From Labilithrix sp. (lineage in GTDB: Bacteria; Myxococcota_A; Polyangia; Polyangiales; Polyangiaceae): a stretch of 64,000 nucleotides of DNA. The position numbers were made by a program, and so were the translations under genes. A model generated the notes under the pieces. That model saw only the letters and a program-made list of their open reading frames with translations. It made no database searches and had not been told where the DNA came from. Positions within the stretch are counted from its first letter, which is position 1. The number at the start of each line of letters is the position of its first letter. Shown one piece after another: positions 18,740 through 34,470 of the stretch. The stretch lies in the NCBI GenBank assembly GCA_019637105.1, contig JAHBWF010000017.1, forward strand, positions 16,624 to 80,623, read 5' to 3'.

Positions 18740-20002
18740 ATGCACACCAAGCCTGCCTTCGTCCTCACGCTCCGCGGCCGCATCCTCGGGACGCTCGCCA
18801 CCTCGACGATCGTCGCAGCGGCGTGCGGCGGCTCGACCAGCGGCCCGGCGTCCTCGAGCTCGGGAGGCTCGAGCTCGGGAGGCTCGAGCTCGGGATCCTC
18901 CGGCGCGTCGGGGAGCTCGAGCTCCTCGGGCTCCTCGGGAGAGCCGACGTGCGCTCACGGCCAGAAGGAGCGCACCTGTTACGGACCGGGATGGGTACCC
19001 ACGCGGGGCGAGATGGCCCCCGACCCCGACGCGGCGCCGCCTCCTCCTCCGACGCGAGACGCGAACGGGTGCGTCGTCGTCGAGGAGGCCTTCAACGGCT
19101 GCTGCAACCCCGCCGTCTCCGGCCCCGTCTTCGAGGACGGCGAGTGTTGCTACGAGTTCTGCGCCGGGGCCTGCTGCGGGCGCCCCGTCCTCGTCGACGG
19201 CGCCGCGCGCGTCGCGCCCCTCCGGATCCGCGACGACTGGAGCTCCGGCGCCGCGCAAGACGAGGCCTCGACGCACATCGACGCGCGCACGCGCGACGCG
19301 CTCCGCGACGCCTGGACGCGCGACGCGCTCCTCGAGCACGCGTCGATCGCGTCGTTCGCTACGTTCACCTTGGAGCTGCTCGCCCTCGGCGCGCCGTCGG
19401 ACCTCGTGCGCGCCGCGCAGGCCGCGGCCGCCGATGAGATCGAGCACGCGAGGCTGACGTTCGCCGTCGCCAGCCGCTACGCCGAGGGATCGATGGGGCC
19501 CGGCGCGCTGGACGTCTCGGGCATCGTGCCCTCGTCGCGCCTCGCCGACGTCGCCGCGGCGTGCGTGCGGGACGGCTGCTTGAACGAGACGATCGCCTCC
19601 GCCATCGCCGGCGCCCAAGCTTCCGTCGCGGCCGATCCCGACCTCCGCGCCGCGCTCGAGCGCATCTCCGAGGACGAGGCGCGCCACGCCGAGCTCGCGT
19701 GGCGCTTCGTCCAGTGGGCGCTCGGCGCGGGCGGCGCCGACGTCCGCGAGGCGGTCGTCGCGGCGTTCGAGGCGCCGGTCGCGCGAAGCGTCTCCGTCCC
19801 CGACGGGATCGACGCGGCCGTCTGGCGCGCGCACGGCCGCCTGCTCGCGTCCGAGCACGCGAGCACCGTCGACGCGGTCGTCGCTCAGGTCATCGCGCCG
19901 TGCCGCGATCGACTCCTCGCGCGCCCCGGCGACGAGGATCGTTCGGCGCCGCCAGCCCGCTCGCCGAGCCCTTCCGTCACGAGCGATCGAGCGGCGAGCT
20001 GA
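18740..20002 (+). CDS. Ferritin-like-domain lipoprotein
   Basis: A lipoprotein of 420 residues. The ATG at 18740 has an AGGAG nine bases upstream and gives a signal ending STIVAAAC (lipobox Cys about 29); longer frames upstream are not supported. A Ser/Gly linker follows (to about 67), then a Cys-rich segment with paired Cys (GCCNPAVSGPVFEDGECC, then FCAGACCGRP). A helical ferritin-like domain spans about residues 190-380. Two Glu...Glu-x-x-His helix pairs are visible: LLEHASIASFATF with DEIEHARLTF, and NETIASAIAG with SEDEARHAELAWRF, the expected di-iron ligands. An exported ferritin-like protein may handle iron or reactive oxygen at the cell surface, but that is inference. Confidence 0.8.
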   Translation: MHTKPAFVLTLRGRILGTLATSTIVAAACGGSTSGPASSSSGGSSSGGSSSGSSGASGSSSSSGSSGEPTCAHGQKERTCYGPGWVPTRGEMAPDPDAAPPPPPTRDANGCVVVEEAFNGCCNPAVSGPVFEDGECCYEFCAGACCGRPVLVDGAARVAPLRIRDDWSSGAAQDEASTHIDARTRDALRDAWTRDALLEHASIASFATFTLELLALGAPSDLVRAAQAAAADEIEHARLTFAVASRYAEGSMGPGALDVSGIVPSSRLADVAAACVRDGCLNETIASAIAGAQASVAADPDLRAALERISEDEARHAELAWRFVQWALGAGGADVREAVVAAFEAPVARSVSVPDGIDAAVWRAHGRLLASEHASTVDAVVAQVIAPCRDRLLARPGDEDRSAPPARSPSPSVTSDRAAS

Positions 20003-20544: not shown

Positions 20545-21042
20545 ATGCAGCTGACGAGCCGCGGTCGATCGGGGAGCAAAGCGACGAAGAGCAAGCGCGG
20601 GGCGTCCGGGAACCCCGGCGTGAAGGACTTCCAGGCGCTGCTGCGCACCGCCGGCCTTCGAAGCACGACGCCGCGCATCGCGGTCCTCGAGCATTTCCAC
20701 GCGCACGGCGGGCAGAACAGCCACGCCGAGATCTTCGAGGCGCTCGGCGATCGCGGCTTCGACCGGGCGACCATCTACAGGATCTTGATGGACCTCGCCG
20801 AGGTGGGCATCCTGTCGCGCACCGATCTCGGCGACCACGTGTGGCGCTTCGAGCTGAAGAAGGGCGTCGGCGGCGTGGAGCACACGGAGGAGCACCCGCA
20901 CTTCGTGTGCGTCGACTGCGGGGAGGTGTCGTGCTTGCCGGGCCTCTCCATTCGACTCGAAGGGGCGGCGAAGGCGCCGAAGTCGGTCGCCAAGAAGAAG
21001 GTCTCCGTCCAGCTCAAGGGGCGTTGCGACAACTGCGCCTGA
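20545..21042 (+). CDS. Fur-family metalloregulator (probable Zur-like)
   Basis: A Fur-superfamily repressor of 165 residues. The winged helix lies at about residues 28-95 (LLRTAGLRSTTPRIAVLEHF, then SHAEIFEALGDRGFDRATIY as recognition helix). The C-terminal dimerisation domain has the metal-site sequence HTEEHPHFVCVDCGEVSCLPG and a second CxxC pair at the end (GRCDNC), so the structural zinc site is complete. The N-terminal 25 residues are basic and Ser/Gly-rich. It is closely similar in layout to the Fur-type gene at 27.6 kb, sharing HPHF-x-C and CLP signatures, and differs from the PerR-like gene at 41.7 kb. Its operator and neighbours point to zinc rather than iron, but the sensed metal is inference. 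Confidence 0.85.
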   Translation: MQLTSRGRSGSKATKSKRGASGNPGVKDFQALLRTAGLRSTTPRIAVLEHFHAHGGQNSHAEIFEALGDRGFDRATIYRILMDLAEVGILSRTDLGDHVWRFELKKGVGGVEHTEEHPHFVCVDCGEVSCLPGLSIRLEGAAKAPKSVAKKKVSVQLKGRCDNCA

Positions 21043-21732
21043 GCGACGCCGACGGCCGCGAGCCCGCGCGCCGTTCTCCGACCTCGCCCTCGACGAGCCT
21101 GACGAGCACGCAAAGGCCATGAGCAACGTTGGACGAGCGCCGAACGCTCGTCCGACGACGCACGCGCGGCGTCGTCGCGTGTCACCCCGCCGTCGTCCCG
21201 CGCGCGCCCGAGCGTTCGTCGCGCGCCGCTTCGAGGCGTGGCCGCGCTGGCGAGCGCGTCGCACGCCCGACCGGCGAGCGTGGCGCGATGCGAGCGCCGT
21301 CGCACGGATTTCGAAGCGCGCACTCACGGTTCGAGCTCGACGCGTGAAGTGCGCCTCGTGGCGGTGATCGCTCGCCGTGAGCCTCCAGGTCGGCGTCCGT
21401 TCGGGGCGCGTCCGGGACTCGGGGCGGCGTCCGTTCGGGGCGCGTCCGGGACTCCCGCTCCTCGCGTCGATCTCGAACCCGTGCCCTTCGTTTCAGGGAT
21501 CGGTGCCGCCGAGTTGCACCCTGGCGTCCGCCCGCGTGGAGCGCTGCGTCCGGACGCAGGACGTCGTCGGCGGACACGAGGTGAGGGCCTCCCGCGCGGT
21601 CGACGAGTCGTCCTCGAGCCCGAACGCCCGCCCGCGCACGGATCGTGTTGCAAATAGATTGCGTTAGATCTAGTGTTGCGTTTGCTCGCGTTGGTGAGCG
21701 TGGTCGCGGAAACCGAATCAAAGAGGGGAACT
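21043..21732. other. Intergenic 690 bp with hairpin, direct repeat and promoter
   Basis: No gene was recognised. A stem-loop ggacgagcg / cgctcgtcc (21131-21153) lies about 90 bp after the Fur stop and may terminate it. A 29-bp direct repeat occurs at 21392-21420 and 21426-21454 (landmark ggcgtccgttcggggcg). The right end carries the promoter and operator of the next lipoprotein. Confidence 0.5.
21648..21676 (+). promoter_or_regulatory. Promoter with island operator (GCAAATAGATTGC)
   Basis: The 13-mer GCAAATAGATTGC (21650-21662) matches the shared GCAAnnnnATTGC palindrome. It overlaps a plausible -35 (ttgcaa, 21648-21653), with tagtgt (21671-21676) 17 bp downstream as a -10. Repressor binding here would block the promoter of the HxCxH lipoprotein that starts at 21733. 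Confidence 0.6.
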
Positions 21733-22317
21733 ATGAAAAATAGGTATGGAATCGCGATGGTCGGCTGCGTGGTGGTGGGGCTCGCCGGTGCGGCCTGCGG
21801 CACGGCGCAGGTCGGAGACGAAGTCCGCGCGGACGGGATCGGGGCGGAGCCGCTCGGGCCGCTCGTCCTCGACCCGGCCGACATCGCTCACGCGTGCGCG
21901 CACGTCGGCGTGTCGTCGTACTCGCCGGTCACGGCGACGGCCTCTCCGACTCACCCGACCGTGACCGATCACGTGGCCTACAGCGTCACGCTCCCGGGCG
22001 GAGGCCCGTATTCGGGGAGCGTGGTCTGGGAGGTCGAAGAGAACCACGTCGCCGTCTACGTCGACCCGGACGCGACGGTCTCCGTGTCCGCCCCCGGCGT
22101 GACGGTCACGGACGTGAACGGAGGCCCGGTGACGATCACCCCCGCCGAGTGCCCGCAGCCCGACGGCGGACAGCCCGACTACGGGACCTCCGACCGCGGC
22201 TTGTATCGCTACTACGAGTTCACGCTGTCCGGCGCGACGCCCCCCTTCGACCTGACGGTCCAGCTGTCGCATGACGACGAGAACCCCGTCCTCGCGCTGT
22301 TCGAGAACATCGACTGA
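21733..22317 (+). CDS. HxCxH-domain lipoprotein 1
   Basis: A lipoprotein of 194 residues. The ATG has an upstream GAGGGG, and the signal GCVVVGLAGAAC puts the lipobox Cys at about residue 22. After a short linker the mature protein opens with DIAHACAHVG, a His-x-Cys-x-His motif (H53, C55, H57), followed by VTATASPTHPTVTDHVAYSV, a beta-rich body and a further Cys (ITPAECPQPDG). The same opening and the pattern V-x-x-H/Y...V-x-L-P recur in the proteins at 22339, 25064 and 26734, so this is a local paralogue family that I do not recognise from named databases. The motif suggests metal binding, and a metal-type operator lies upstream. Function unproven. Confidence 0.7.
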   Translation: MKNRYGIAMVGCVVVGLAGAACGTAQVGDEVRADGIGAEPLGPLVLDPADIAHACAHVGVSSYSPVTATASPTHPTVTDHVAYSVTLPGGGPYSGSVVWEVEENHVAVYVDPDATVSVSAPGVTVTDVNGGPVTITPAECPQPDGGQPDYGTSDRGLYRYYEFTLSGATPPFDLTVQLSHDDENPVLALFENID

Positions 22318-22338
22318 GGAGAGCGAGCTCGAGCTCCG

Positions 22339-23373
22339 ATGAGGCTCCGCGTTGCTTCCACGGCGTCCATCGTCGTTCTTACGGCGATCGGCCTGGCGTG
22401 CTCGGACGAGGTCGGTCCGACGCCGCCCGGCGGGCCTGTCCCCGATCCGGCGACGGACGGCTCGGACGGCCGCGCCCCTCCGATCGAGGACGACCGTGGA
22501 AGCGACGGGGGCGTCGGGCTGGGCGACGCCTCGCCGATCGACGACGCCGGCGGCCCCGACGCGAGCGACGCCTCGCCGTCGGGCGGCGTCAGGGTGATCG
22601 CGTCCGAGCCTGCCGAGGGCTCGTCCACCTACGCGTTCGAGATGGTCGAGAGCGGCGCGAGCTGGGCGCGCAAGAAGCGCGTCCGCCTCGAGTTCGACAG
22701 CGCGATGAACACGTCGATCGCCGCGCTCGCGTTGAACGTCGTCCCCGGGGGAGGGAACTACGCGTTCAGCGGCGTCTGGTCCGCGGACGCGCTCGTCCTC
22801 GAGGCCGAGCTGCCGCTCCTCTACGCGGGGGGCCGACCGCTCGAGTACCAGAAGCACTACGCGGTCGACCTGTCGGCGCTGCGCGACGCCCAGGGTCGCG
22901 GCGTGGACGCGGCGCACGGGTACCTCGGCGACGGGGCGCTCGACTTCACGACGATGGCGCGCGACGGGCTGCTCGAGCACACGTGCCTGCATACGTTCGA
23001 CGCTCCCCAGCCGCCGTTGGGGCTGTCGGTCACGCCCGAGGCGGGCTTGGCCGTCGGCACGCCGCACCTGCGCTACGTGATGGTCCTGCCGGACGGCGCC
23101 GGCCCGCGGGTCGGGCACGCGACGTGGCAGGTCTTCGGCGCCGGCACGCAGCAGCGGCGCATCGTCTTCTTGCGCGACGACGTCCCGCTCACCTTGCGCG
23201 GCCCGAACGGAGCTCCGCCGGCGACGGCGCCCGCGCCGTACCCCGTTCCGCGCGTGTGCGCGCTCGTCAAGGCGTGGGACATGGTGCTGGAGAACGACGT
23301 CCCTTACACGCTGTCGTTCGGACCGACGGAGGTGACTCCGATCGAGGTCTTCTTCGAGGCCGCCGCCCTCTGA
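22339..23373 (+). CDS. Ig-like plus HxCxH-domain lipoprotein 2
   Basis: A lipoprotein of 344 residues starting 21 bp after the previous gene, so probably in one operon. The lipobox is AIGLAC (Cys 21), followed by an Asp/Gly-rich acidic linker to about residue 80. Residues about 85-205 look like a bacterial Ig-like (Big_5) domain (KKRVRLEFDSAMNTSIAALA). The C-terminal part opens with LLEHTCLHTF (H214, C216, H218), continues with LRYVMVLPDG and ends with YTLSFGPTEVTPIEVFF, which aligns with the HxCxH domains of its neighbours. A second Cys sits in VPRVCALVKA. Ig-like domains often act as spacers on surface proteins. The metal-binding role is inferred from the motif. Confidence 0.7.
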   Translation: MRLRVASTASIVVLTAIGLACSDEVGPTPPGGPVPDPATDGSDGRAPPIEDDRGSDGGVGLGDASPIDDAGGPDASDASPSGGVRVIASEPAEGSSTYAFEMVESGASWARKKRVRLEFDSAMNTSIAALALNVVPGGGNYAFSGVWSADALVLEAELPLLYAGGRPLEYQKHYAVDLSALRDAQGRGVDAAHGYLGDGALDFTTMARDGLLEHTCLHTFDAPQPPLGLSVTPEAGLAVGTPHLRYVMVLPDGAGPRVGHATWQVFGAGTQQRRIVFLRDDVPLTLRGPNGAPPATAPAPYPVPRVCALVKAWDMVLENDVPYTLSFGPTEVTPIEVFFEAAAL

Positions 23374-23461
23374 CGCGGGCGCGGAGTCGCGACGCGCGCG
23401 CGAGGGCCGCGCGTCGCGCCGAGCTCATCGCTGTCTTTCAAGTTCACGGAGTCAACGTCCC

Positions 23462-24958
23462 ATGAAGCGTCCCCTGGTCACTCTGATCGCTCCGGCGATC
23501 GCGCTCGCCGTCGCGTGCAGCGACGCCCTCGAGACGCCGATCGATACGGACGACGCCGGCGCCTCGCCGCCGATCTCCGACGGCGGCGCGACGGAGCCGT
23601 CGCCGGAGGCCTCCGACGACGGAGGCGAGCCTCCCCTCGCGGACGGAGGTGACGCCGACGCGAGCCACGCCGACGCGGGCGACGCCGACGCAGACGTGTT
23701 CGCGCCGTTGATCCCCAGCCTCGCGACGGGCCGGCGCCTCGCGGTCGGCCGCGATCACACGTGCCTTCTCAACGAGGAGGGGCGCGTGCGCTGCTGGGGC
23801 CGGAACATCAACGGCGAGCTCGGCTACGGAGACTTGAACAACCGCGGGGACGACCCCGGGGAGATCGCGCTCCTCGAGGACGTCCCGCTGGGAGGCCCCG
23901 TCGCCGCGATCGCGGCGGGGGGGAGCGTCTCGTGCGCCGTCCGGAGCAACGGCGAGGTGCTCTGCTGGGGCGCCGGGGGACGCGTCGGGAACGGCGCGAC
24001 CGGCCACGTCGGATCGCTGCCCGGCCAGATGCCGCCCGCGCCGCTCGCGCTGGGCGGCCCAGCCCGGCAGGTCGTCATCGGACACTTCCACGCGTGCGCG
24101 CTGAAGACGAACGGCGACGTCGTCTGCTGGGGCCTCGACACGGACGGATCGCTCGGGCGAGGCAGCGCGGGAGACACGATCGGCGACGAGGCGGGCGAGA
24201 TGCCGCCGCCGCCCGTCGACCTCGGCGAGCCGGCGGTCGCGCTCGTATCGGGCGCCTACTCCACCTGCGCCGCGCTCGCGTCCGGCGCGCTCCGTTGCTG
24301 GGGCAGCGCGCGGTACAACCCGGCGATGCTCGGCCACGGGAGCGCGACGGAGCACGTCGGAGACGAGCCCGGCGATCTGCCGCCCGCGAACGTACCGCTC
24401 GGCGGCCTCGCGTTCTCGAGCCTGTACGCGGGCGTCGGCCACGCCTGCGTGCGCTCGATCCTGGGCGGAGCCCTCTGCTGGGGCGACAACACGTACAACC
24501 AGCTCGGTCCCTCGGATCCTGCGGTCGGCGTCGGGGTCGGCGACGCGCCGGGCGAGATGCCGCCGCCGCGCCTCGGCGCGCAGGCGGACGGCGGCGCCGG
24601 CCCGCTCGACATCGCGTCGATGGCGCTCGGCAACGGTCACACGTGCAGCCTGTCGTCCGGCGGTTGGGTCCGCTGCTGGGGCCGGAACAACTATGGGCAG
24701 TGCGGCGTGCCCGGTCAGGCGGTCCTCGGCGACGAGCCCGGCGAGTTCCCTCCCGTGCCGGCGGTCAGCGTCGACGCGACGGATCCGGTCGTGGAGATCG
24801 CCGCGGGGCTCGGCAACCCTTTCACGTGCGCGCGTCTGGCGTCCGGCAACGTGCGGTGCTGGGGACGCAACAACTACGGACAGTTGGGCCTCGGCCACAC
24901 GTCGAACGTCGGCGACGACGAGGTCCCGTCGAGCGTCGCGGCGATCTCGATCTTCTGA
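23462..24958 (+). CDS. RCC1-repeat lipoprotein
   Basis: A lipoprotein of 498 residues. The signal (LIAPAIALAVAC) ends with a lipobox Cys near residue 19, then an Asp/Gly/Ala-rich acidic linker runs to about residue 75. The rest is a beta-propeller of RCC1-type repeats, each with the pattern C-A/S-L...G-x-V-x-C-W-G-x-N, for example HTCLLNEEGRVRCWGRNING, FHACALKTNGDVVCWGLD, HTCSLSSGGWVRCWGRNNYG and NVRCWGRNNYGQLGLG. RCC1-like lipoproteins are strikingly common in myxobacteria and their ligands are unknown. It is 88 bp downstream of the Ig/HxCxH lipoprotein and may be cotranscribed. No HxCxH motif is present. Confidence 0.85.
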   Translation: MKRPLVTLIAPAIALAVACSDALETPIDTDDAGASPPISDGGATEPSPEASDDGGEPPLADGGDADASHADAGDADADVFAPLIPSLATGRRLAVGRDHTCLLNEEGRVRCWGRNINGELGYGDLNNRGDDPGEIALLEDVPLGGPVAAIAAGGSVSCAVRSNGEVLCWGAGGRVGNGATGHVGSLPGQMPPAPLALGGPARQVVIGHFHACALKTNGDVVCWGLDTDGSLGRGSAGDTIGDEAGEMPPPPVDLGEPAVALVSGAYSTCAALASGALRCWGSARYNPAMLGHGSATEHVGDEPGDLPPANVPLGGLAFSSLYAGVGHACVRSILGGALCWGDNTYNQLGPSDPAVGVGVGDAPGEMPPPRLGAQADGGAGPLDIASMALGNGHTCSLSSGGWVRCWGRNNYGQCGVPGQAVLGDEPGEFPPVPAVSVDATDPVVEIAAGLGNPFTCARLASGNVRCWGRNNYGQLGLGHTSNVGDDEVPSSVAAISIF

Positions 24959-25063
24959 CGCGGCGCGCTTCGAGCGCGCCCGCGGTCCGGCGGCGACGCG
25001 CCGCGAGCGAGCTCGTCGAAGGGCGCGCGGCGAGCGCGGCGCGAACGAGGTGACGACGGCGTG

Positions 25064-26733
25064 ATGGCTCATGCGACGAGCGAGATGGGGATGGATGCAC
25101 CTTTGAGACTGCGAGGTCGAACGAGTCCGAGGAGCCGCGGCGCACGAGCCGTCGGCCTCGCGGCGCTGCTCGCGTCGGCGCTTTTGTTGGCGTCGATGCT
25201 CTCCTCGAGCACGGCGCGGGCCGATCTCCCCGCCGGCTGCGCCGAGCTCGGCTTCGCGCTGACGGAGCACTCTTGCTTCCACGCGACGTTCGGCCCTTAC
25301 GCGACGGTGACGGCGGCTCCGGGCGTGCCTGCGGCCGCGGCCGCGCCGCGCGTGGACGACGTGCACACGTACCACGACGTCGTCTTGCCCAACCCGACCG
25401 GTCAAAACACGGTCAGCTACAAGGTCTCCTCCGCGTCGCGCTCCGGCGCGTGGGCGATCTTCCACGACGCGCGCGTCCCCATCCGTGTCGTGTCGGAGTC
25501 GGGGCAAGAGCAACCCGTCGTCCTCTCGCACGACGTCGCGTCGTGCACGTTCTTGCCTCGCGTCGACGTCTTCGAGCTCGGCTTCGAGCGCTACCGCGTC
25601 GTGCTCGGCCCGACGAACGTCACGCGCTCCGTGCTGGTGATCGAGAACATCTCGGACTTCATGCGGCACAACGGACGCGATCTCGACGGGGACGGCTACG
25701 GCGACGTCGCGGACGCCGTGATCACCGCTTGCGTGCCGGCCGCCGGCTACGTGCAGAACGCGTCCGACTGCGACGACACGAACCCCGCGATCCATCCGGG
25801 GCCGCCGAGGTCTGCGACGGGATCGACCAGAACTGCAACGGCGTCGTCGACGACGTCGGCCTGCCGTGCACGTCCGGCCAAGGGCAGTGCCGGGCGAGCG
25901 GGACGACGCAGTGCCTCGCGAGCCAGGCGCCGGCCGTGTGCAGCGCGGTCGCCTCGGCCCCCGGCGTCGAGACGTGCGACGGCGTCGACGAGGACTGCGA
26001 CGGCGTCCCCGACGTCCTCGAGCCGGGGTTGTGCGCGCACCCGGACGCGCCGTCGTGCGTCCTCGTGCTCGGCGCGACGCGCTGCGGGTGCGACGCGGAC
26101 TCCGACTGCGGCGGACCGACCAGCGAGCGCGTCTGCGATCTGGACGCGAGACGTTGCGTGACCGGGTGCGTCGCGCTCCCGGGTCGAAACGCGTGCCCCG
26201 CCGGGCTCGTGTGCACCTCCGCGGACCCCGCGAACCCCGGCACGTGCGTCCCGCCGACGAGCGGATGCACCGACGACGCGGGGTGCGCGGCGACCCCGCT
26301 CACGCCGCGTTGCCTCGTCCCTCCCGGGCAGCTCGGGCGCTGCGTGGAGTGCGTCGACGACCTGTCGTGCGGATCGCGCGGCGACCGCCGGACGGCGTGC
26401 ATCGGGCCCGACCATCGCTGCGCCGAGTGCACCGCCGAGGACACCTCGCGCTGCGACGCCACGGAGCGCGGCTCGGCGTGCTTGCCGAGCGGGCTCTGCG
26501 GGTGCACCGACGACGGGGAGTGCGAGAGCGGGGCGTGTGACCTCGCTCGCGGAGCGTGCTCGCCGGCGGACGCCGAGCCGGCGGGAGAGGACGGCGAGCC
26601 TGCGCCCGCCGACGCGTGCGGGTGTCGTGCCCTCGGCGCCCGCGCCGACGGGGCGCGAGGCGCCTGGCTCGTCGTCGCGCTCGCCGCCGTCTTCCGCCGG
26701 CGCCGGCTCGGACGCGCGGCGGCGCCCGCGATC
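25064..26733 (+). pseudogene. HxCxH-domain protein 3 with Cys-rich stalk and MYXO-CTERM tail, frameshifted
   Basis: The N-terminal frame gives a signal peptide (VGLAALLASALLLASMLSSS) and the HxCxH domain (LTEHSCFHATFGPY, H69/C71/H73) to about residue 210. It then reaches a calcium-type DLDGDGYGD loop and DCDDTNPAIHPG. At the G run 25798-25801 the reading frame must shift by one base to continue as AAEVCDGIDQNCNGVVDD, a Cys-rich stalk (CTDDGECESGACDLARGAC) and a MYXO-CTERM-like end (CGCRALGARADGARGAWLVV, then FRRRR). One missing G would explain the break. In the unshifted frame translation stops at 26161. Whether this is a sequencing slip, phase variation or decay cannot be told. The intact product would be a surface protein processed by the MYXO-CTERM sorting system. 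No stop follows the Arg cluster in this frame, so the 3' limit is set by the next gene. Confidence 0.65.
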
Positions 26734-27351
26734 GTGAGCGCCGCGCTGATCGCGTTCGCCGGCTGCGGCGGCCGGATGGAGGAGGTCACGGAGCCGAGCA
26801 CGACGACGCCGCCGTCCAACGTGCCGGACAGGGGCGTCGAGGGCGGGCCCGCCCCCGACGCGGCCGTCGCCGACGCCGATCCGCCCGACGCGTGCGTGCC
26901 CGAGCTCGGGTCGAAGGTCGTCGGCCACGCGTGCAGCCACGGGACGCACGGCCCCTTCGAGTCGGTCGTCGCGGCGGACGGCGCCGCCTCCGCCGCGCCC
27001 GCGGTGAACGTGGTTCATCGCACGTACGAGGTGGTGATGCCGAGCGCGTCCCCGCCTTGGTCGGGCGCGGTCGGCTACGCGCCGTCGCGCGACGGCCGGC
27101 ACGCGATCTTCACGGCGCCGCTCGTCGGCCTCCGGATCTTCTCGGGAGACGCGGAGGTGTCGGCGGTTCATCGACAGGACGTCTCCGACGCCGCGTGCGC
27201 CGCGCTCGACCAAGCCGTCGTCGCTCCGCTGGCGAAGGGGCAGCCCGTGCGCATCGAGCTCTCCGATTCTCCCGAGCGAGAGGTGAAGCTCTTCATCGAG
27301 CACTTGGGGACGTTCGACGGAGACGCGTGGGCGTCTTCGTGCGCGCCGTAG
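26734..27351 (+). CDS. HxCxH-domain lipoprotein 4
   Basis: This frame continues directly from the MYXO-CTERM tail, but a fresh lipoprotein signal is visible (APAIVSAALIAFAGC), so a separate gene is proposed from the GTG at 26734 (205 residues). That start gives a very short signal without basic residues, so the true start may lie a little upstream or the two products may be fused. After an acidic linker comes VVGHACSHGTHGPFESVVAA (H65, C67, H69), then VHRTYEVVMP, a Cys (SDAACAALDQ) and a closing EVKLFIEHLG. It aligns best with the HxCxH domain of the gene just upstream. It has no MYXO-CTERM of its own. Role unknown. Confidence 0.6.
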   Translation: MSAALIAFAGCGGRMEEVTEPSTTTPPSNVPDRGVEGGPAPDAAVADADPPDACVPELGSKVVGHACSHGTHGPFESVVAADGAASAAPAVNVVHRTYEVVMPSASPPWSGAVGYAPSRDGRHAIFTAPLVGLRIFSGDAEVSAVHRQDVSDAACAALDQAVVAPLAKGQPVRIELSDSPEREVKLFIEHLGTFDGDAWASSCAP

Positions 27352-27649: not shown

Positions 27650-28129
27650 TCAGCCGCACTTCTCGCAGCGTCCCGTGATCTGGACGTCGACGACGCCCCG
27701 AACGATGCGCGGCGGGATCCGCACGGAGTCGTGGGGGAGGCACGTGACGGTCTTGCACACGAGGCACGTGAAGTGCGGATGCGGATCGTGGCCCAGCGAG
27801 CCGCTGCGCAGCTCGAACCGCCAGGTCCCGTCGCCGCCGTTCGAGCGGTCGACGAGGCCGACCTCGGTCAGCGCCACGAGGATCCGCCAGACCGTGACCT
27901 TGTCGAGGCTCTCCCCCTCGAGTCGTTCGGCGACCTCCGCGTGACTCATCGGCCCCTTGGCGCGACCGAGCTCGCGGAGCACCGACAGGCGGCCCGAGGT
28001 CACCTTGAGCTTGGCCGCGCGGAGCTGCTCGCGCAGATCCATGTCGGCGGGCGCCGGCGCGACGCCTCGGCGAGCGCCGCCTCCGGACGAGCGGCGCGGC
28101 ACGCTCGGTTCTCGTGCGGCAGTCTTCAT
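27650..28129 (-). CDS. Second Fur-family metalloregulator
   Basis: A Fur-superfamily protein of 159 residues. The ATG at 28129 gives MKTAAREPSVPRRS; upstream codons belong to the divergent promoter region. The winged helix spans about residues 32-95 (LRAAKLKVTSGRLSVLRELG, SHAEVAERLEGESLDKVTVW as recognition helix). The C-terminal domain has HDPHPHFTCLVCKTVTCLPH and a closing ITGRCEKCG, so both CxxC zinc pairs are intact. It resembles the Fur-type gene at 20.5 kb more than the PerR-like one at 41.7 kb. A dyad cttca-gatga-tgaag (about 28137-28151) lies just upstream, and the island operator at 28260 lies between it and the divergent ArsR gene. The metal sensed is not shown; zinc is the best guess from context. 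Confidence 0.85.
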   Translation of the reverse strand: MKTAAREPSVPRRSSGGGARRGVAPAPADMDLREQLRAAKLKVTSGRLSVLRELGRAKGPMSHAEVAERLEGESLDKVTVWRILVALTEVGLVDRSNGGDGTWRFELRSGSLGHDPHPHFTCLVCKTVTCLPHDSVRIPPRIVRGVVDVQITGRCEKCG

Positions 28130-28259
28130 TCGCTTCTTCAGATGATGAAGTATCTGCCGTTCGAAGGACGCGCGCAAGCGTCGTCGCCCGGGCCGCGACG
28201 CGCGCGAGGAGCGGGGCGGCCCGGAGACGGTCGCGCAGGTGTTCAACCGTGGTGTGCAT

Positions 28260-28272
28260 GCAATTGGATTGC
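28260..28272. promoter_or_regulatory. Island operator (perfect palindrome) between divergent regulators
   Basis: GCAAT then TGG then ATTGC forms a perfect palindrome, the best copy of the shared motif. It lies between the minus-strand Fur gene and the plus-strand ArsR gene, 64 bp before the GTG chosen for the latter, so it could control either or both. Confidence 0.6.
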
Positions 28273-28336
28273 GTTGTTTCGCGGCCTGGCGCACTCTGCG
28301 CGCTGCGGATCGAGCCGCCGCACCACCCGCACGAGA

Positions 28337-28723
28337 GTGTCCGTGATCCCGCGCGAGCGACTCCCACGCCCCCAATGCTCCATCCACGAGCACGCGCGCC
28401 GCGTCGCGCGCGAGGGCATGGTCCGATCGCGGGCGCGGAGCGTTCGGAGCGTCGCGCGCATCTTCGTCGCCGCCGGGGACGCTCACCGCCTACGGCTCCT
28501 GGTGTTGCTCCTGCAGAGCCCCATGTCCATCGGGGAGCTCGCCAGAGCGACAGGACGCACCGTGTCGCTCGTGGCGCAACAGATGCGCGTCCTCCGCGAC
28601 GCCAGGCTCGTGAAGGGGACCCGCGAAGGCAGGCAGATCGTCTACGCGATCCTCGACCGACGGACGCATCGCCTCCTGGACACGTGTCTCTGGCACGCTA
28701 TCCAGAGCGGGAGCGCGCGGTGA
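28337..28723 (+). CDS. ArsR/SmtB-family metal-responsive repressor
   Basis: A winged-helix regulator of about 128 residues. The GTG at 28337 is preferred because it includes PQCSIHEHARRVA, a Cys/His-rich N-terminus like that of zinc sensors of the SmtB/ZiaR group; the internal ATG at 28418 would remove it. The core reads VARIFVAAGDAHRLRLLVLL, then MSIGELARATGRTVSLVAQQ and MRVLRDARLVKGTREGRQIV, the normal helix-turn-helix and wing. The last helix (DRRTHRLLDTCLWHA) carries Asp, His, Cys and His in positions resembling the alpha-5 zinc site. In SmtB-type proteins metal binding releases DNA, which complements Fur/Zur repression. The zinc assignment is inference. Confidence 0.75.
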   Translation: MSVIPRERLPRPQCSIHEHARRVAREGMVRSRARSVRSVARIFVAAGDAHRLRLLVLLLQSPMSIGELARATGRTVSLVAQQMRVLRDARLVKGTREGRQIVYAILDRRTHRLLDTCLWHAIQSGSAR

Positions 28724-28726
28724 CGG

Positions 28727-29011
28727 TCACTGCGTGCAAGCCGCGACGCACTCGTCCTTCTTCGCCGCGCACTCCTCTTCGGTGCGGCCCTCGCCGTGGG
28801 CGAAGTCGTCACACTCCTTCGCCTTGGCGTTCGACTGCATGACCCTCACGCAGTCTTCATGGAACGCCTCGCACGAGGGCGGGATGCTCTCCTCGTGCCC
28901 GTGCTCGTCCTCACCCTCGTGTTCGTGATCGTGATCGTCCGAGCAGGCGTAGAGCGGTCCGCCGAGGAGACCGAGAACGAGCAAACCGACCGAGAGAGAA
29001 CGAGCTTTCAC
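28727..29011 (-). CDS. His- and Cys-rich small lipoprotein, putative metal binder
   Basis: A lipoprotein of 94 residues. The GTG at 29011 follows GGAGG at close spacing and gives the signal LSVGLLVLGLLGGPLYAC (lipobox Cys about 23). Immediately after the Cys comes DDHDHEHEGEDEHGHEE, a run of His alternating with acidic residues, the classic metal-collecting linker. The C-terminal half has six Cys (SCEAFHEDC, ECDDFAH, ECAAKKDECVAAC) in a C-x6-C-like helical pattern. It ends 3 bp from the convergent ArsR gene, and an island operator lies 60 bp upstream of its start. Zinc or copper chelation at the cell surface is the likely role, not shown. Confidence 0.7.
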   Translation of the reverse strand: MKARSLSVGLLVLGLLGGPLYACSDDHDHEHEGEDEHGHEESIPPSCEAFHEDCVRVMQSNAKAKECDDFAHGEGRTEEECAAKKDECVAACTQ

Positions 29012-29071: not shown

Positions 29072-29092
29072 AAACGCAACTTAATTGCGTTT
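29072..29092. promoter_or_regulatory. Island operator, perfect 8-bp arms
   Basis: The arm aaacgcaa (29072-29079) and its exact complement ttgcgttt (29085-29092) flank 5 bp; the 13-mer core is GCAACTTAATTGC (29076-29088). It lies upstream of the His/Cys-rich lipoprotein gene on the minus strand and is the longest perfect version of the shared motif. Confidence 0.65.
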
Positions 29093-29113: not shown

Positions 29114-30037
29114 TCAGAGGCGCGAGATGGTGCAGAGCCCGAGGCCGTTCAAGTGGGCCTGGCCGGCGGACGTGGCGAGCATGAACGCCTGGAGGTTCTG
29201 CTCGGGGAGCGGGACGCTCCCCGGGTTGTAGAGGATCCGCTGGCCGTCCTCGTCCACCAGAGGGCCGCCGTCCGCCGCGCGCAGATCCGCGAGGGGCTGC
29301 GTGGCGAGCGCGTCGAAGGTGACCCGAGAATCGCCGTCCGCGACCGCGGCGATGGCCTCGAACCTCAGGTTGGCGACCTCCGTTCCGAGCGTGTCCCAGA
29401 ACAGGTGATCGAGGTGGAACGTGATCTCGACGTCGGCGGTCGCGTTGCTGCGGACGACGACGCCTTCCGTGTTGTCGAGGCCGTTCGTGCAGTTCGTGGC
29501 GCGGGTCGGGTTCCCGAGGCCCCACGCGAACGAGACGGAGCGCCCGTCCTTCTCCGCGGTCCCCTCGAGCCAGTAGTTGAAGCCGCCCTGCTGCATCCGG
29601 ACGAGGTCCTCCGCGGCGACCTGGCCGACGGTCTTCGCCGTGGGCGACGGCGGCACGACGCGGAAGCCGAACCGCTCCCAGCGACGGGCCTCCAGGCCGT
29701 CCTGCAGGAGGATGGTCGGATCGTCGAGGTGCAGATCCGTGACGAAGACGTCCGTCGAAGCGAACGCGTCGACGTCGTCGGCGCTCGCGAGGCGCAGCTC
29801 CCCGACGCTGACGAGGTACTTCGAGAACCGCACCGTCCAGCCGTCGGCGAAGCGGATCTCGGCGCCGTTCTTGACGTACGGATAGCCGGTCTTGGCCGCG
29901 CCCTCGCCGCTGACGCGTATCGCGACGGCCCCGCGTCCGGCGTCGCTCGCCGCGCACCCGCCCTGCGCGGCGAAGGCGACGCACGTCGCCGTCAAGACGG
30001 CCAGCGCGCGCGGGCGGAGCGTGTTCTCGGGGTGCAT
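29114..30037 (-). CDS. Periplasmic/surface lipoprotein of the metal island
   Basis: A lipoprotein of 307 residues. The ATG at 30037 has AAAGGTAGG upstream and yields the signal LAVLTATCVAFAAQGGC (Cys about 28). The mature part begins VAIRVSGEGAAKTGYPY, then FADGWTVRFSKYLVSVGELR, VFVTDLHLDD and later VEITFHLDHLFWDT. The layout of a strand-rich domain beginning with F-x-D-G-W and describing 'sites' between strands recalls the MbnP group of periplasmic metal-associated proteins, but the match is not close enough for a name. It lies downstream of the TonB receptor and a second lipoprotein with its own operator in the 62-bp gap. A role in handing metal to the receptor is inference. Confidence 0.65.
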   Translation of the reverse strand: MHPENTLRPRALAVLTATCVAFAAQGGCAASDAGRGAVAIRVSGEGAAKTGYPYVKNGAEIRFADGWTVRFSKYLVSVGELRLASADDVDAFASTDVFVTDLHLDDPTILLQDGLEARRWERFGFRVVPPSPTAKTVGQVAAEDLVRMQQGGFNYWLEGTAEKDGRSVSFAWGLGNPTRATNCTNGLDNTEGVVVRSNATADVEITFHLDHLFWDTLGTEVANLRFEAIAAVADGDSRVTFDALATQPLADLRAADGGPLVDEDGQRILYNPGSVPLPEQNLQAFMLATSAGQAHLNGLGLCTISRL

Positions 30038-30070
30038 CGAGCCTACCTTTGCCGCCGTATTGTGTCTGAT

Positions 30071-30083
30071 GCAAGTGAATTGC
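30071..30083. promoter_or_regulatory. Island operator (GCAAGTGAATTGC)
   Basis: This copy of GCAAnnnnATTGC lies in the 62-bp gap upstream of the lipoprotein gene at 29114-30037 (minus strand), so that gene may have its own metal-regulated promoter besides readthrough from the receptor operon. Confidence 0.6.
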
Positions 30084-30099
30084 GAATGTAGGGTGCCGA

Positions 30100-30879
30100 T
30101 CAGGGGGCGTTCTCGACCTTGAAGGCGCCGGCGCTCTGGACGCCGAGCTCCCAGGAGAGGCTCGCCTGGCTCCCGGGCGCGATGAGCGCGGCGCCCTTCG
30201 TCGGGTCCACGATGAGCTCGTCGAACTTCGTCTGGTCGAACCACGGCCGCGGGTCCACGGTGACGAGGAGCCGGCGCTGGTCGTCGATCACGACGTCGGC
30301 CGAGATCTGAATGCGGCGTTTGGTCCCCACCGCCTCGATGTCGAGCCCGCCCTCGAAGCGTACGGCCTCGGCCCCCCGCGCGGCGACGCCGACGACGTAC
30401 GCCTGATGACCGCGGAGGCACGTCGTCGCTCCGAGCGCCGAGGCGCGCGGCGGATGGAGGCCGATGGTGACGGACCTGGCCTCTCCCGCGATCCCCTCGC
30501 GCGCGCCGAGGTCGACGCGCTCTCCGGACGTCAGGTCGAGGGCGAGCTGCTCGAGCCACTCGCCGCGGACTTCGCCGCCGTTGAAGTGGTCGACGCCCGG
30601 GTGGGCGTGGGCGGAGGGGAGGAGCCAGTCGTAGGCGCGGCGCACCGAGGCCGAGAGCCCGGCCTCGGCGTAGAGGTAGATGGGGCCGACGGAGACGCAC
30701 GCCTCCTCCAGCGTCACGTCCCAGCCGAGGGCGGTGCGGAAGGCGCGCGGCGCGGGCGCCGGCTCGACGGAGAGATCGAACATGGCGCGTCGTCCGCCCG
30801 TCCCTGGCTCGCACGCCCACGCTGCGAGGAGGGCCACGGAGGCGGTGAGCGCGCCGAGCGCGCGACGGCGTCGAGTCAT
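30100..30879 (-). CDS. Receptor-coupled lipoprotein with HxHPG motif
   Basis: An exported protein of 259 residues whose ATG overlaps the TonB receptor stop in an ATGA junction, so the two are translationally coupled. The signal is basic then hydrophobic (MTRRRRALGALTASVALLAA) with a Cys at about residue 23. The mature domain has FDLSVEPAPAPRAFRTALGW, a segment ACVSVGPIYLYAE and the striking LLPSAHAHPGVDHFNGGEV, rich in His and likely to bind metal. It ends with a strand-rich half (VVIDDQRRLLVTVDPRPW). Lipoproteins coupled to TonB receptors usually capture the ligand before import. I do not recognise a named family. Confidence 0.65.
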   Translation of the reverse strand: MTRRRRALGALTASVALLAAWACEPGTGGRRAMFDLSVEPAPAPRAFRTALGWDVTLEEACVSVGPIYLYAEAGLSASVRRAYDWLLPSAHAHPGVDHFNGGEVRGEWLEQLALDLTSGERVDLGAREGIAGEARSVTIGLHPPRASALGATTCLRGHQAYVVGVAARGAEAVRFEGGLDIEAVGTKRRIQISADVVIDDQRRLLVTVDPRPWFDQTKFDELIVDPTKGAALIAPGSQASLSWELGVQSAGAFKVENAP

Positions 30880-33161
30880 AAGCGGTCCTCCTCCTCTTCC
30901 TTCGCGTCGAAATAGAACGTGCACGTCGCCATGAGCGTCTGCGGCGGTCCGGCCGCGAAGTGCTGCTGGCTCACGAGGGAGGGAAACGCCGAGGGGCCGC
31001 GGAAGTTCGACGCGTAGTTGTAGACCGCGAGCTTGTTGCGTCGATCGAAGAGGTTGGCGGCCTCGAGGCCGAGCTCGACCATCCGGTAACGAAGTCGGAC
31101 GGCGGCGTCGAACGTGCCGTACGCGGGGCCGAGCTGCCCGAACGGCAGCGGTCTCGGCGCCACGTACGTGAAGCCGCTCGCGACGTTGTAGCGGAAGGTC
31201 TCGCCGAACGCGCGAAACGAGCGCCGGAGCGACGCGTCGACGCGCGCGACCCACCGCGGGACGTAGGGGAGTCGAGGCCCGGCGGTGAGGTCGAGCTCGG
31301 AGGCGCCCGGAGGGGGCAGGTACGCCTCCGCGTAGGTGATGCTCGTCTGCGTGTCGAGCCCGAAGGGCGTCGTGACGCGCGCGGCCCCGAGGGCGCCGAA
31401 GCGGTTCGACGCGCCGATCGGAGTGTTGCGGCCGGCCGTTTCGTCGAAGACGAGGTCGCGTTCGACGCGCGTGTGGAAGGCGACGGTCCTCGCGTCGAGG
31501 GCGAAGTACCCGCTCTCCACGACGTTGCTCACGAGGCCGCTCTCCACGGCGCGCACGCGCGCGAAGGGAGCGAACTCTCCTTGCGACAGGGCCTGCGCGT
31601 CGCTCGAACGGGTCCCGACGCCGAGGCTCGTGATCCAGCGGAGCCGCCGGTGGACGGTCACGTCGGCGGAGAGCTTGGGCGCAGCGGCGACGCCGAACGC
31701 TTCGACGGCCTCCGACGTGAGGCGGTCGCCCGATCGGTCGACGGCCGGACGGTTCCGATCGACGACGGAGAAGGCGAACGTATCGAGCCGCAGGCCCCCC
31801 CGGAGGGTGAGCCTCGGGAGCGCCACGAAGCGGCCCGCCGCGTAGAAGGCGACGTTGGTGATCCGGAGGTGGTTGTCGAGGTCGACGCGGTAAGGGACGC
31901 CGTCGGCGAACCGCAGCCTCCTCGCCGCCGAGTCGGCGTCGTCGAAGCGCGCGTAGTAGCCGACCTCGACCTCGTGACGACGTCCGAGCGCGTCGACGCG
32001 TCGGGCGTAGGCGCCGCGTCCGCCCACCGTCGTCGCGCCGTAGGACTGCTCGAGCCCGTCCCCGCGCTGCGGCTCTCCCAGGGGGCTCACGTCGCCGACG
32101 AACCCCGTCAGGTTCTGCCGCACGCGGAGCTGCCGGACCGTCGCGAAGACCTGCTGCTCGATCCGATCGGAGGGGCCGCGCTTCTCGAGCCGGAGAGAGA
32201 GGCCGTGGCGCGCGACGCCGCCGCCCTGGTTCCGATCGTAGAGGCAGAAGAACTGGTCCTCCTCCGCGGCCGGGCAGAGGGAGAGGCGCCGCGCCGCGTA
32301 GTCGTCCTGCCGGATCACCCCCGCCGTGTCGAAGCGCCCCGCGTACGACGTCGCGAGGAGCGTCGCGGTGACCCCCTGCCCGAGGGAGCGCTCGTACTGG
32401 GCCATCGCGCGGGTCGACGCGTGGGCTCGGTTCGTGCCGAAGCCTTCTCCCTGGACGAAGTCGACGCCGGCGAACGTGCGCCGGGACGTCCCGGCGGGCC
32501 CCCAGAGCGCGACGAGGCGGCGGGTGTCGAACGAACCGTAGGCGCCCCGCGCCGTCACGCCGCGGTGCTCGAGCCCGAGCCGGTAGTCGACGCTGCCCGC
32601 GACGGCGAAGTCGCCCTGACGAGGATCGAAGGGGCCCTCGACGACGCGGAGCCGATCGACGAGCTCGGGGATGATGAAGTGGGTGTCCGCGTAGCCGTGC
32701 GCGTGGGCGTTCGAGGGCTCGTTGATCGGGGCGCCCTCGAGCCGCATCTCGATGTCCTGGCCCTCTCCGGCGTCGAAGCCGCGGAGGAAGATGGTCGACG
32801 CGTGGCCTTCCCCGGACGGGTTGGAGAGGAAGAGGCCGGGGGCGAGCGTGAGGAGCTGCTCGGCGTTGCGCCGCGGCACGTCGCCGAGCTGACCGATCCG
32901 GATGTCCATGTCGCTCGCCGCCGTCGGCTCGACCCGCTTGCTCCCGACGACCTTCACCTCGCCGGGCGACGCCTCGGCGGCGGGAGCCGACGCCGACCCT
33001 GCCGGCGCCGAGCTCACCGGCCCGGCGCCAGCCTGTCCAGATGCAGGTCGATTGCTCTGAGCGCGCGCGGGCGCGGCCCGGAGGACGACGCAGGCGACCG
33101 CGGCGAAGAGCGCGATCGCCCGCACGAACGTCGGCGGGCGCGGCGGGCTCGGCGGGGCCAT
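30876..33161 (-). CDS. TonB-dependent outer membrane receptor
   Basis: A receptor of 761 residues. It has a signal peptide (IALFAAVACVVLRAAPARAQ), an Ala/Pro/Ser linker and a plug domain at about residues 65-190 (VVGSKRVEPTAASDMDIRIG, RRNAEQLLTLAPGLFLSNPS and the loop NEPSNAHAHGYADTHFIIPE with three His). The C-terminal beta-barrel runs to the end, finishing in aromatic strand residues (MATCTFYFDAKEEEEDRL) though followed by an acidic tail, which is unusual because the last residue is normally aromatic. Two Cys in a loop (LCPAAEEDQFFCLY) may form a disulphide. An island operator lies in the 61-bp divergent gap to the AztD-like gene. Metal or metallophore uptake is likely from the plug His cluster and neighbours, not shown. 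Confidence 0.88.
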   Translation of the reverse strand: MAPPSPPRPPTFVRAIALFAAVACVVLRAAPARAQSNRPASGQAGAGPVSSAPAGSASAPAAEASPGEVKVVGSKRVEPTAASDMDIRIGQLGDVPRRNAEQLLTLAPGLFLSNPSGEGHASTIFLRGFDAGEGQDIEMRLEGAPINEPSNAHAHGYADTHFIIPELVDRLRVVEGPFDPRQGDFAVAGSVDYRLGLEHRGVTARGAYGSFDTRRLVALWGPAGTSRRTFAGVDFVQGEGFGTNRAHASTRAMAQYERSLGQGVTATLLATSYAGRFDTAGVIRQDDYAARRLSLCPAAEEDQFFCLYDRNQGGGVARHGLSLRLEKRGPSDRIEQQVFATVRQLRVRQNLTGFVGDVSPLGEPQRGDGLEQSYGATTVGGRGAYARRVDALGRRHEVEVGYYARFDDADSAARRLRFADGVPYRVDLDNHLRITNVAFYAAGRFVALPRLTLRGGLRLDTFAFSVVDRNRPAVDRSGDRLTSEAVEAFGVAAAPKLSADVTVHRRLRWITSLGVGTRSSDAQALSQGEFAPFARVRAVESGLVSNVVESGYFALDARTVAFHTRVERDLVFDETAGRNTPIGASNRFGALGAARVTTPFGLDTQTSITYAEAYLPPPGASELDLTAGPRLPYVPRWVARVDASLRRSFRAFGETFRYNVASGFTYVAPRPLPFGQLGPAYGTFDAAVRLRYRMVELGLEAANLFDRRNKLAVYNYASNFRGPSAFPSLVSQQHFAAGPPQTLMATCTFYFDAKEEEEDRL

Positions 33162-33222: not shown

Positions 33223-34470
33223 GTGAACCGACGCCTCGCCAGGCTGGCCCTCCTGGGTGCCCTCGCCCTCGACGGATGCAGTGACGACGCTTCGAGCGCT
33301 CCGGCGGAGAAGCCCCACGTCTCCCGCTTACGCGTTCGTGTCGCCGTCGCCGATCTGCGCGCGCCGACGATCGCCTTCTACGACGTCGCCGATCGCGAGG
33401 TCGTAGGGCGTTTGACGATCGACGCCCCGGCGGCTTCCCTCGTCGGATCGCAATCGGGCGACACGGCGCTCGCCGTCCCGAAGGACGGCGGCGGGGTGCG
33501 CGTCCTCGGCGGCGGCGTCGCGGTGATCCCTCACAAGGACCACATCCACATCTTCAAGTCGCCGCCCGAGGTGCTCGGGGATCCCGTGCCCGGGGCGGGG
33601 GCGGCCGCCTCCACGTTCGCGGACGGCCAGTGGGGGATCTTCTTCGAGGGAGATCCGGCGGGGGCAGGCGGAGCGGCGGCGGCGCTCGCCCTCACGGAGG
33701 AGCCGTGGGTCCAGGGGACGCGCGTCCCCGTGGACGTCGCCGCGCCCACGCCGCACCGAGGGTTCACGATCCCCTTCGGGGGCGGGTACCTCGTGAGCCG
33801 ACCCCAGGCGAGCGGCGGCCCCGTGGCGGGCGGGGCGGACCTCGTCGTGGCGGGGAGCGCGCCGCAGCCCTTGGTCGAGTGCCCGGAGATGACGAGCGCG
33901 GCGAGCTCCGGAGCCGTCGTCGCGTTCGCGTGCCGCGACGGCGTCGTGCTGCTCGGTCCGGACCGAGTCGCCGGCGCGCCCGTAGCGTTGCCCGACGGCA
34001 TGAAGCCGTACGAGCTCGCCGCCCTCGCGGAGCAGCCGTTCCTCCTCGGTCGCGATCCCGCGGGGCGCGTCTTCGCGCTCGAGCTCGCGACGCGCGTCGC
34101 GCGCGCGCTCCCGCTCGAGGGAGAGGCGTGCGACGCGGTCCTCGAGATCGGCACGACGCCGCGCGGCGTCGTCCTGACCAGCGCGGGGAACGTCGAGCGC
34201 TTCGCGCTGGCGAGCGACGAGCGTCGCACGACCGTCGCGGCGGTGCCCGCCTTCGCGTGCTCGGATCCCGAGCGCCCGCGCCTGGCCGCGACGCCCGGTC
34301 GAGCGTGGATCACGTCGCCCGCGAGCGGCGAGCTCCTCGAGGTCGACACGAGCGCGGGCGCGACGGTACGGCGGATCTCCGTGGGCGGCGCGCCCGGGCC
34401 GATCGCCGTCCTCGGGCTCGCCGCGCGCGACGCGGACCTCTCGACGGGCAACGACAAGCTCACGGACTGA
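33223..34470 (+). CDS. AztD-like zinc metallochaperone lipoprotein
   Basis: A lipoprotein of 415 residues starting at GTG; lipobox LALDGC (Cys 19). The remainder is a beta-propeller that follows the AztD family pattern closely. It has VAVIPHKDHIHIFK (H104, H107, H109) where AztD has its His-rich loop, then TPHRGFTIPFGGGYLVS, ECPEMTSAASSGAVVAFACR, and a closing RISVGGAPGPIAVLGL. In Paracoccus, AztD loads zinc onto the ABC-transporter binding protein AztC in the periplasm. Here no AztABC genes are adjacent, so the partner must be elsewhere or different. It is divergent from the TonB receptor and shares its operator, which is the best single clue that the island handles zinc. The assignment rests on my recall of the family pattern. 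Confidence 0.72.
   Translation: MNRRLARLALLGALALDGCSDDASSAPAEKPHVSRLRVRVAVADLRAPTIAFYDVADREVVGRLTIDAPAASLVGSQSGDTALAVPKDGGGVRVLGGGVAVIPHKDHIHIFKSPPEVLGDPVPGAGAAASTFADGQWGIFFEGDPAGAGGAAAALALTEEPWVQGTRVPVDVAAPTPHRGFTIPFGGGYLVSRPQASGGPVAGGADLVVAGSAPQPLVECPEMTSAASSGAVVAFACRDGVVLLGPDRVAGAPVALPDGMKPYELAALAEQPFLLGRDPAGRVFALELATRVARALPLEGEACDAVLEIGTTPRGVVLTSAGNVERFALASDERRTTVAAVPAFACSDPERPRLAATPGRAWITSPASGELLEVDTSAGATVRRISVGGAPGPIAVLGLAARDADLSTGNDKLTD

Follow-up and report, generated by a model that had tools for sequence, protein, structure and literature searches.

Genes and features of the locus

We analyzed a 64,000-nucleotide stretch of the Labilithrix sp. genome (contig JAHBWF010000017.1, positions 16,624 to 80,623 of the forward strand), hereafter the window, in which four neighbouring exported proteins, A to D, carry a shared domain. 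This domain opens with a His-x-Cys-x-His (HxCxH) motif. We consider that it probably serves as an extracytoplasmic zinc-capturing module of a zinc-starvation regulon of the Zur type, because of the genes that neighbour it in many Myxococcota genomes and because of a shared palindrome. The features of the locus, in window positions, are as follows.

20545..21042, + strand: Fur-family regulator, candidate Zur (PF01475, 5.5e-13)
21648..21665, no strand: operator-like palindrome, candidate Zur box, 67 bases upstream of the gene A start
21733..22317, + strand: gene A, short lipoprotein; domain at 21874-22314 with HACAH (alignment, profile match)
22339..23373, + strand: gene B, lipoprotein; Ig-like part (a label of the original prediction); domain at 22951-23370 with HTCLH
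23462..24958, + strand: putative RCC1-repeat-like lipoprotein (labelled by eye)
25061..25800, + strand: first frame of gene C, secreted; domain at 25250-25690 with HSCFH
25786..26733, + strand: continuing frame of gene C, MopE-type motifs and MYXO-CTERM-like tail (PF11617, 37.8 bits)
26734..27351, + strand: D, lipobox-like segment; domain at 26878-27348 with HACSH, in frame with the C tail
27650..28042, - strand: second Fur-family regulator (PF01475, 6e-10)
28258..28275, no strand: candidate Zur box between the second Fur gene and the ArsR gene
28418..28723, + strand: ArsR-family regulator (PF01022, 1.5e-9)
28727..29011, - strand: small His-rich lipoprotein with a candidate operator upstream (no Pfam match)
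29074..29091, no strand: candidate Zur box
29114..30037, - strand: companion lipoprotein of the VRVSGEG type (no Pfam match)
30069..30086, no strand: candidate Zur box
30100..30879, - strand: companion lipoprotein of the GTGGR type, remotely similar to the X protein of znu operons (hhalign probability 95.9, 77 columns)
30876..33161, - strand: TonB-dependent receptor (PF00593, 2.1e-11; PF07715, 9.5e-10)
33223..34470, + strand: AztD-like zinc metallochaperone (NF038015, 5.1e-16, 58 bits, under the curated cut-off of 400)

A domain shared by four exported proteins

The motifs HACAH, HTCLH, HSCFH and HACSH were found in the open reading frames (ORFs) and translations of the window at the positions given by the original prediction. 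When the four domains were aligned with MAFFT, the H-x-C-x-H, the later His and the terminal Glu were invariant in all four. A profile of 18 relatives from outside the window, themselves recovered with the four-domain profile, picked out the four domains alone among the 629 ORFs of at least 50 residues in the window: D at 5.8e-32, C at 1.8e-29, B at 1.2e-10 and, for its first half only, A at 5.4e-10. A second profile, from ten znu-operon proteins, missed A but matched B, C and D, all with E-values of at most 1.3e-9. Leave-one-out profiles from the window domains alone recovered C and D and missed A and B, so that A and B are regarded as divergent. Searched against the 8.45-Mb draft genome, the four-domain profile matched these four only (E<=10). 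Judged from these profiles, the homology of the four domains is real and goes beyond chance.

Accordingly, the original prediction held in describing one domain shared by four neighbouring exported proteins and attached to different scaffolds. Its statement that the domain belongs to no named family agrees with the database scans, as no Pfam or NCBIfam model matched the domain at E<=1, or three of its relatives (L140, L079 and L085) at E<=10. A sequence search of solved structures with a 22-row profile gave no match at E<=1, and Rfam gave none over the window at gathering thresholds. The search of Myxococcota genomes with a hidden Markov model of the four domains, which had been proposed as a check, returned relatives.

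Leaving the window's own genome aside, the four-row profile detected the domain in six of 58 relatives (E<1e-3). With the 22-row profile it was detected in at least 65 of 377 Myxococcota genomes (E<=1e-3), a lower bound since no more than 11 candidates per genome were scored. All rows of that profile bear HxCxH, 18 of them having been chosen by this pattern, and its matches are therefore biased towards the motif. A pattern scan of one genome per species (84,980 species) gave 44 stretches and nine confirmed loci, whose record titles read Myxococcales, Deltaproteobacteria, delta proteobacterium, Proteobacteria or bacterium metagenome-assembled genomes.

In a tree of 94 domains, A grouped with copies from genomes G370 and G398 (99/91), and C did likewise (100/98). 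B and D also grouped with copies from the same two genomes, joined by a G031 copy (99/66) and a G045 copy (84/64), respectively, but more weakly. The tree left 20 of its 91 inner branches open, and its bootstrap had yet to settle. Since A to D each group with copies of other genomes, the four types look, by sequence, like old paralogues rather than recent duplicates. The clusters of G398 and G370 hold A, the RCC1-like lipoprotein (recognised by eye), B and C-D. A truncated additional copy of the motif region lies in genome G006 (L035, 8062-8373, - strand).

Zinc-import genes around the domain

For the gene neighbourhood, we collected 77 loci from 67 genomes, comprising the matches of the 377-genome search, the stronger four-row matches and one weak match (G012, contig C112, E 0.047). 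Marker genes were mostly called by their own single-seed profiles; in the two loci tested with Pfam, L041 and L035, ZnuA, ABC-3, cobW and DksA were confirmed, with ZnuA at 8.1e-45 and ABC-3 at 1.5e-28 in L041. Of the 77 loci, 40 have ZnuA or ZnuB no more than 3 kb from the domain; at the same range, 34 have protein X, 17 a Fur-family gene and two COG0523. The companions of the window locus (the TonB receptor, the AztD-like protein or the two companion lipoproteins) occurred within 6 kb in nine loci. Any of the markers sought was present in 54 loci. The exact order znuA-X-HCH-znuC-znuB on one strand was observed in 24 loci; the others showed partial versions, some cut by contig ends. PF01297 (ZnuA) left the four window proteins unmatched and matched the ZnuA gene of the L041 operon separately. 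Among genomes with the domain, 56 of 65 have an ABC-3 permease; among those lacking it, 157 of 312 do (Fisher p 3.8e-8, in a hand count that ignores kinship and takes both samples as the same 377 genomes).

Protein X of the znu operons (L041:9489-10328 and 33 other loci) bears a CHxxHCH motif, P-x-G-x-x-x-C-H-x-x-H-C-H, in all 34 copies, and its L041 copy gave no Pfam or NCBIfam match. It is likely a second new part of zinc import.

At the window locus, the lipoprotein at 18740-20002 gave a weak Ferritin_2 match under the cut-off (E 0.069). A copper/methanobactin reading of the companion lipoproteins, suggested by the label MbnP-like, was dropped when Pfam gave no match.

A palindrome shared with Zur targets

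A palindrome is common to the spaces before gene A, the second Fur gene/ArsR pair, the His-rich lipoprotein and one companion lipoprotein. TGCAAnnnnATTGCG occurs three times in the genome, each time at this locus. TGCAANNNNATTGCG has three exact sites in 8.45 Mb, again all at the locus, and its reversed control has none; the pattern was written from these sites, and it thus shows clustering, not discovery. When at most one mismatch was allowed, RYGCAANNNNATTGCGWW was found at seven places outside the window, two of them on contig C124, where a third place has two mismatches. Of the five other one-mismatch places, the one on C302 was examined and has nothing plainly zinc-related nearby.

Around the C124 sites (L187 4569-11690) are genes for two COG0523 GTPases, ribosomal protein S18, two DUF1826 proteins and a His-rich lipoprotein, and we consider this region a likely second Zur locus of the genome. 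The genome has two S18 genes, a C124 copy without Cys and another copy with three Cys. Cys-free and Cys-bearing S18 are the usual pair of zinc-free and zinc-binding forms. In the available text of PMC2770081, COG0523 is recorded as a Zur target, and DUF1826 is named in a figure legend of Zur-regulated clusters; a table of PMC6103462 records rpsR2 as a Zur target. The upstream palindrome of the window locus is therefore shared with known Zur targets of the same genome, on computed sites and at two of the seven relaxed places. The C124 His-rich lipoprotein bears HAF repeats and DUF3466.

A matrix trained on seven sites of the window's genome alone, used at a threshold of 17 bits, found sites in 22 of the 77 loci of other genomes (34 sites, 28 of them intergenic), versus a mean of 1.4 and a maximum of three loci in ten dinucleotide shuffles. 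Some of these sites lie directly upstream of a family gene in L033, L034, L035, L073 and L086, and further ones stand upstream of COG0523, Fur or ZnuA genes.

Conserved residues and predicted fold

Over the 96 rows of the 22-row profile, neither Cys was ever replaced where it was aligned, the first in 90 of 90 rows and the distal one in 94 of 94. Identity is low overall, with a mean column identity of 27%. The six rows in which the first Cys is unaligned comprise five with a Cys upstream of the match and one cut by a contig end. Conservation of the other positions was 82 of 90 rows for the motif His, 75 of 95 for the later His and 66 of 73 for the terminal Glu. Two positions before the Cys, 46 of 90 rows have His and 35 have Glu, and the motif is thus better written [H/E]xCxH. 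All three of [H/E], motif His and later His occur together in 60 of the 75 rows in which they are aligned; from these patterns, they are the likely zinc ligands. Of 87 rows with these positions aligned, all 8 that lack the second motif His and all 13 that lack the later His retain both Cys. As both Cys persist where His is lost, they probably form a disulfide, and a role of Cys as metal ligand is held less likely.

AlphaFold2 models of the domain were confident and placed [H/E]xCxH within a predicted helix, and helix periodicity predicts that motif positions 1 and 5 lie on one face and the Cys on another. The predicted core resembles collagen-binding and pre-peptidase C-terminal (PPC) domains by Foldseek and VIA-align, the latter being a second look at Foldseek's own matches only. 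The models show the beta-sandwich typical of PPC, and in them the fold is a PPC-like beta-sandwich with an added helix. At the level of sequence, PF04151 (PPC) matched neither the window proteins at E<=1 nor L140, L079 and L085 at E<=10. On the one hand, the core is comparable to ColG s3b (5iku), of the PPC/collagen-binding group. On the other hand, the motif helix (residues 4-14) lies outside the 5iku match, which starts at residue 16, and the domain here adds two Cys and the His/Glu residues. PliG (E. coli YcgK), an annotated lysozyme inhibitor, matches Pfam PPC at 1.2e-10, and the E. coli protein has no Cys. Homology to PliG was dropped, as profile comparison gave a probability of 1.3 and sequence support was absent.

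The junction of genes C and D

The coding frame of gene C changes by one base within a G run near 25,800, which puts the stalk in the other frame; from the sequence, this would be either a real shift or an assembly error. The fourth domain continues the reading frame of gene C's Arg-rich tail. The only separate start seen for D is a GTG at 26734, almost inside the hydrophobic stretch and with nearly no basic stretch before it. The tail of protein C has a MYXO-CTERM-like motif, a hydrophobic stretch and an Arg run, visible by eye; TIGR03901 (MYXO-CTERM) left the window protein unmatched at E<=1 and matched the orthologue in L073 with 28.4 bits. The NCBIfam model NF058595 (lipo-invert) gave a weak match across the C-D hinge (21.3 bits, cut-off 37), and the term lipo-invert gave no record in the literature search.

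In G398 and G370, one ORF contains both domains, with a MYXO-CTERM (by the TIGR03901 match in L073) and then a basic stretch and a lipobox. L074 has an in-frame Met ahead of the second hydrophobic stretch, from which a separate lipoprotein could also start. In G045, the two domains are two ORFs. An internal MYXO-CTERM is called a rare, atypical case in the available text of PMC11980579. The arrangement of a MYXO-CTERM-like tail with a lipobox and second domain following in frame (window 26600-26800; L073, L074) may represent a two-anchor precursor.

Discussion

We propose that the domain consists of a helix with [H/E]-x-C-x-H, which a disulfide between the two Cys would pin to a PPC-like beta-sandwich. 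An exposed zinc site would be made up of motif residues 1 and 5, separated by one helical turn, and the His about 25 residues further on. The copies in znu operons may take up or buffer periplasmic zinc and hand it to ZnuA, much as ZinT and AztD serve their own importers, and this is the direction in which we infer that zinc flows. In the genome of the window, the four copies would form a surface and outer-membrane cassette that catches zinc outside the cell and in the periplasm, with the TonB receptor, the AztD homologue and the companion lipoproteins serving as a relay. Zur would repress these genes from the palindrome. As a broader and more tentative picture, which we regard as possible rather than probable, the family would be zinc metallochaperones that, with the CHxxHCH protein, regularly add a fifth component to zinc import across much of the phylum Myxococcota; in some lineages it would have expanded into a Zur-controlled surface cassette that includes a TonB receptor and operates without ZnuA, made partly as a polyprotein in which a lipobox comes after an internal MYXO-CTERM.

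Several observations weigh against a zinc-capturing role. No marker sought was found near the domain in 23 of 77 loci (three of them on contigs shorter than 6 kb), and 15 of 75 rows are without one or more of the three putative ligands. The window's own genome, a 334-contig draft that is 91.5% complete, has no ZnuA at E<=0.001 and has a single ABC-3 permease without ZnuA or ZnuC beside it; it also has a partial ZIP match under the cut-off (28.4 bits, cut-off 35.1). With two mismatches allowed, the palindrome barely outnumbers its reversed control (141 versus 128). A site of at least 17 bits was found in only 11 of 40 znu-linked loci, in three of them solely inside called genes, which indicates that the palindrome is lineage-dependent or that the matrix is too narrow.

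Considering that HxCxH suits soft metals and that MopE-type motifs annotated as Cu-binding (PF11617) are found in the stalk of C, the domain could bind another metal or cofactor, such as copper, iron or haem, and the proximity of zinc genes would then be incidental in part of the family. Fur-family genes serve iron too, which also counts in this direction. However, znuABC, COG0523, an S18 paralogue without Cys and AztD are its neighbours, Glu frequently replaces the first His, and the pattern of the Cys looks structural; we consider another metal unlikely. The original prediction of a metal-capturing module with Cys among its ligands is partly supported. A metal-related role is retained, and zinc can be named from the gene context, whereas Cys as a ligand is not supported, given the rows that keep both Cys without His and the frequent Glu at the first position.

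A protein-binding role is also conceivable, in which the domain would carry no metal but bind to an importer protein such as ZnuA or the TonB receptor, through an interface containing His/Glu. The fold is a common binding beta-sandwich, and some rows, such as L128 and L130, have lost a motif His yet remain in the znu operon. We regard this as quite unlikely, given that [H/E], His and His are kept together in most rows despite the low identity of the family. It is highly improbable that the domain is an ordinary surface beta-sandwich for adhesion or for substrate or matrix binding, with a structural metal. Although the closest folds are collagen-binding and PPC domains, and C has a stalk and MYXO-CTERM-like anchoring, such a function leaves the repeated znu-operon position and the palindrome unexplained. 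Accordingly, we prefer zinc capture, which provides a likely function and testable residues for a family spread across the phylum Myxococcota. For some myxobacteria, the palindrome supplies a candidate Zur operator, a means to map the zinc regulon of one genome after another. This reading also suggests that a binding sandwich fold became a metal carrier through one added, stapled helix.

The domain had been called undescribed. This stands for the sequence family, which is unnamed, but not for the fold, which is already known from collagen-binding and PPC-like cores. Among the matches listed in the literature search (titles and abstract openings), we found no description of the family, and among the matches listed there was no paper on zinc uptake in Myxococcota. 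The available text of PMC6689063 describes two comparable systems. AztD is likewise extracytoplasmic, is encoded in a zinc ABC importer operon and transfers zinc to AztC, and ZinT is a Zur-regulated zinc protein that aids import through ZnuA-type importers. However, AztD is a beta-propeller, and the AztD-like gene at 33223-34470, which matches NF038015, stands separately beside the cassette, while the four proteins were unmatched by this model in the NCBIfam scan. Models of the ZinT family were absent from the matches of the domain in the Pfam and NCBIfam scans. Taken together, the role appears to be of a kind known from zinc chaperones such as ZinT and AztD, whereas the family and its build appear to be new.

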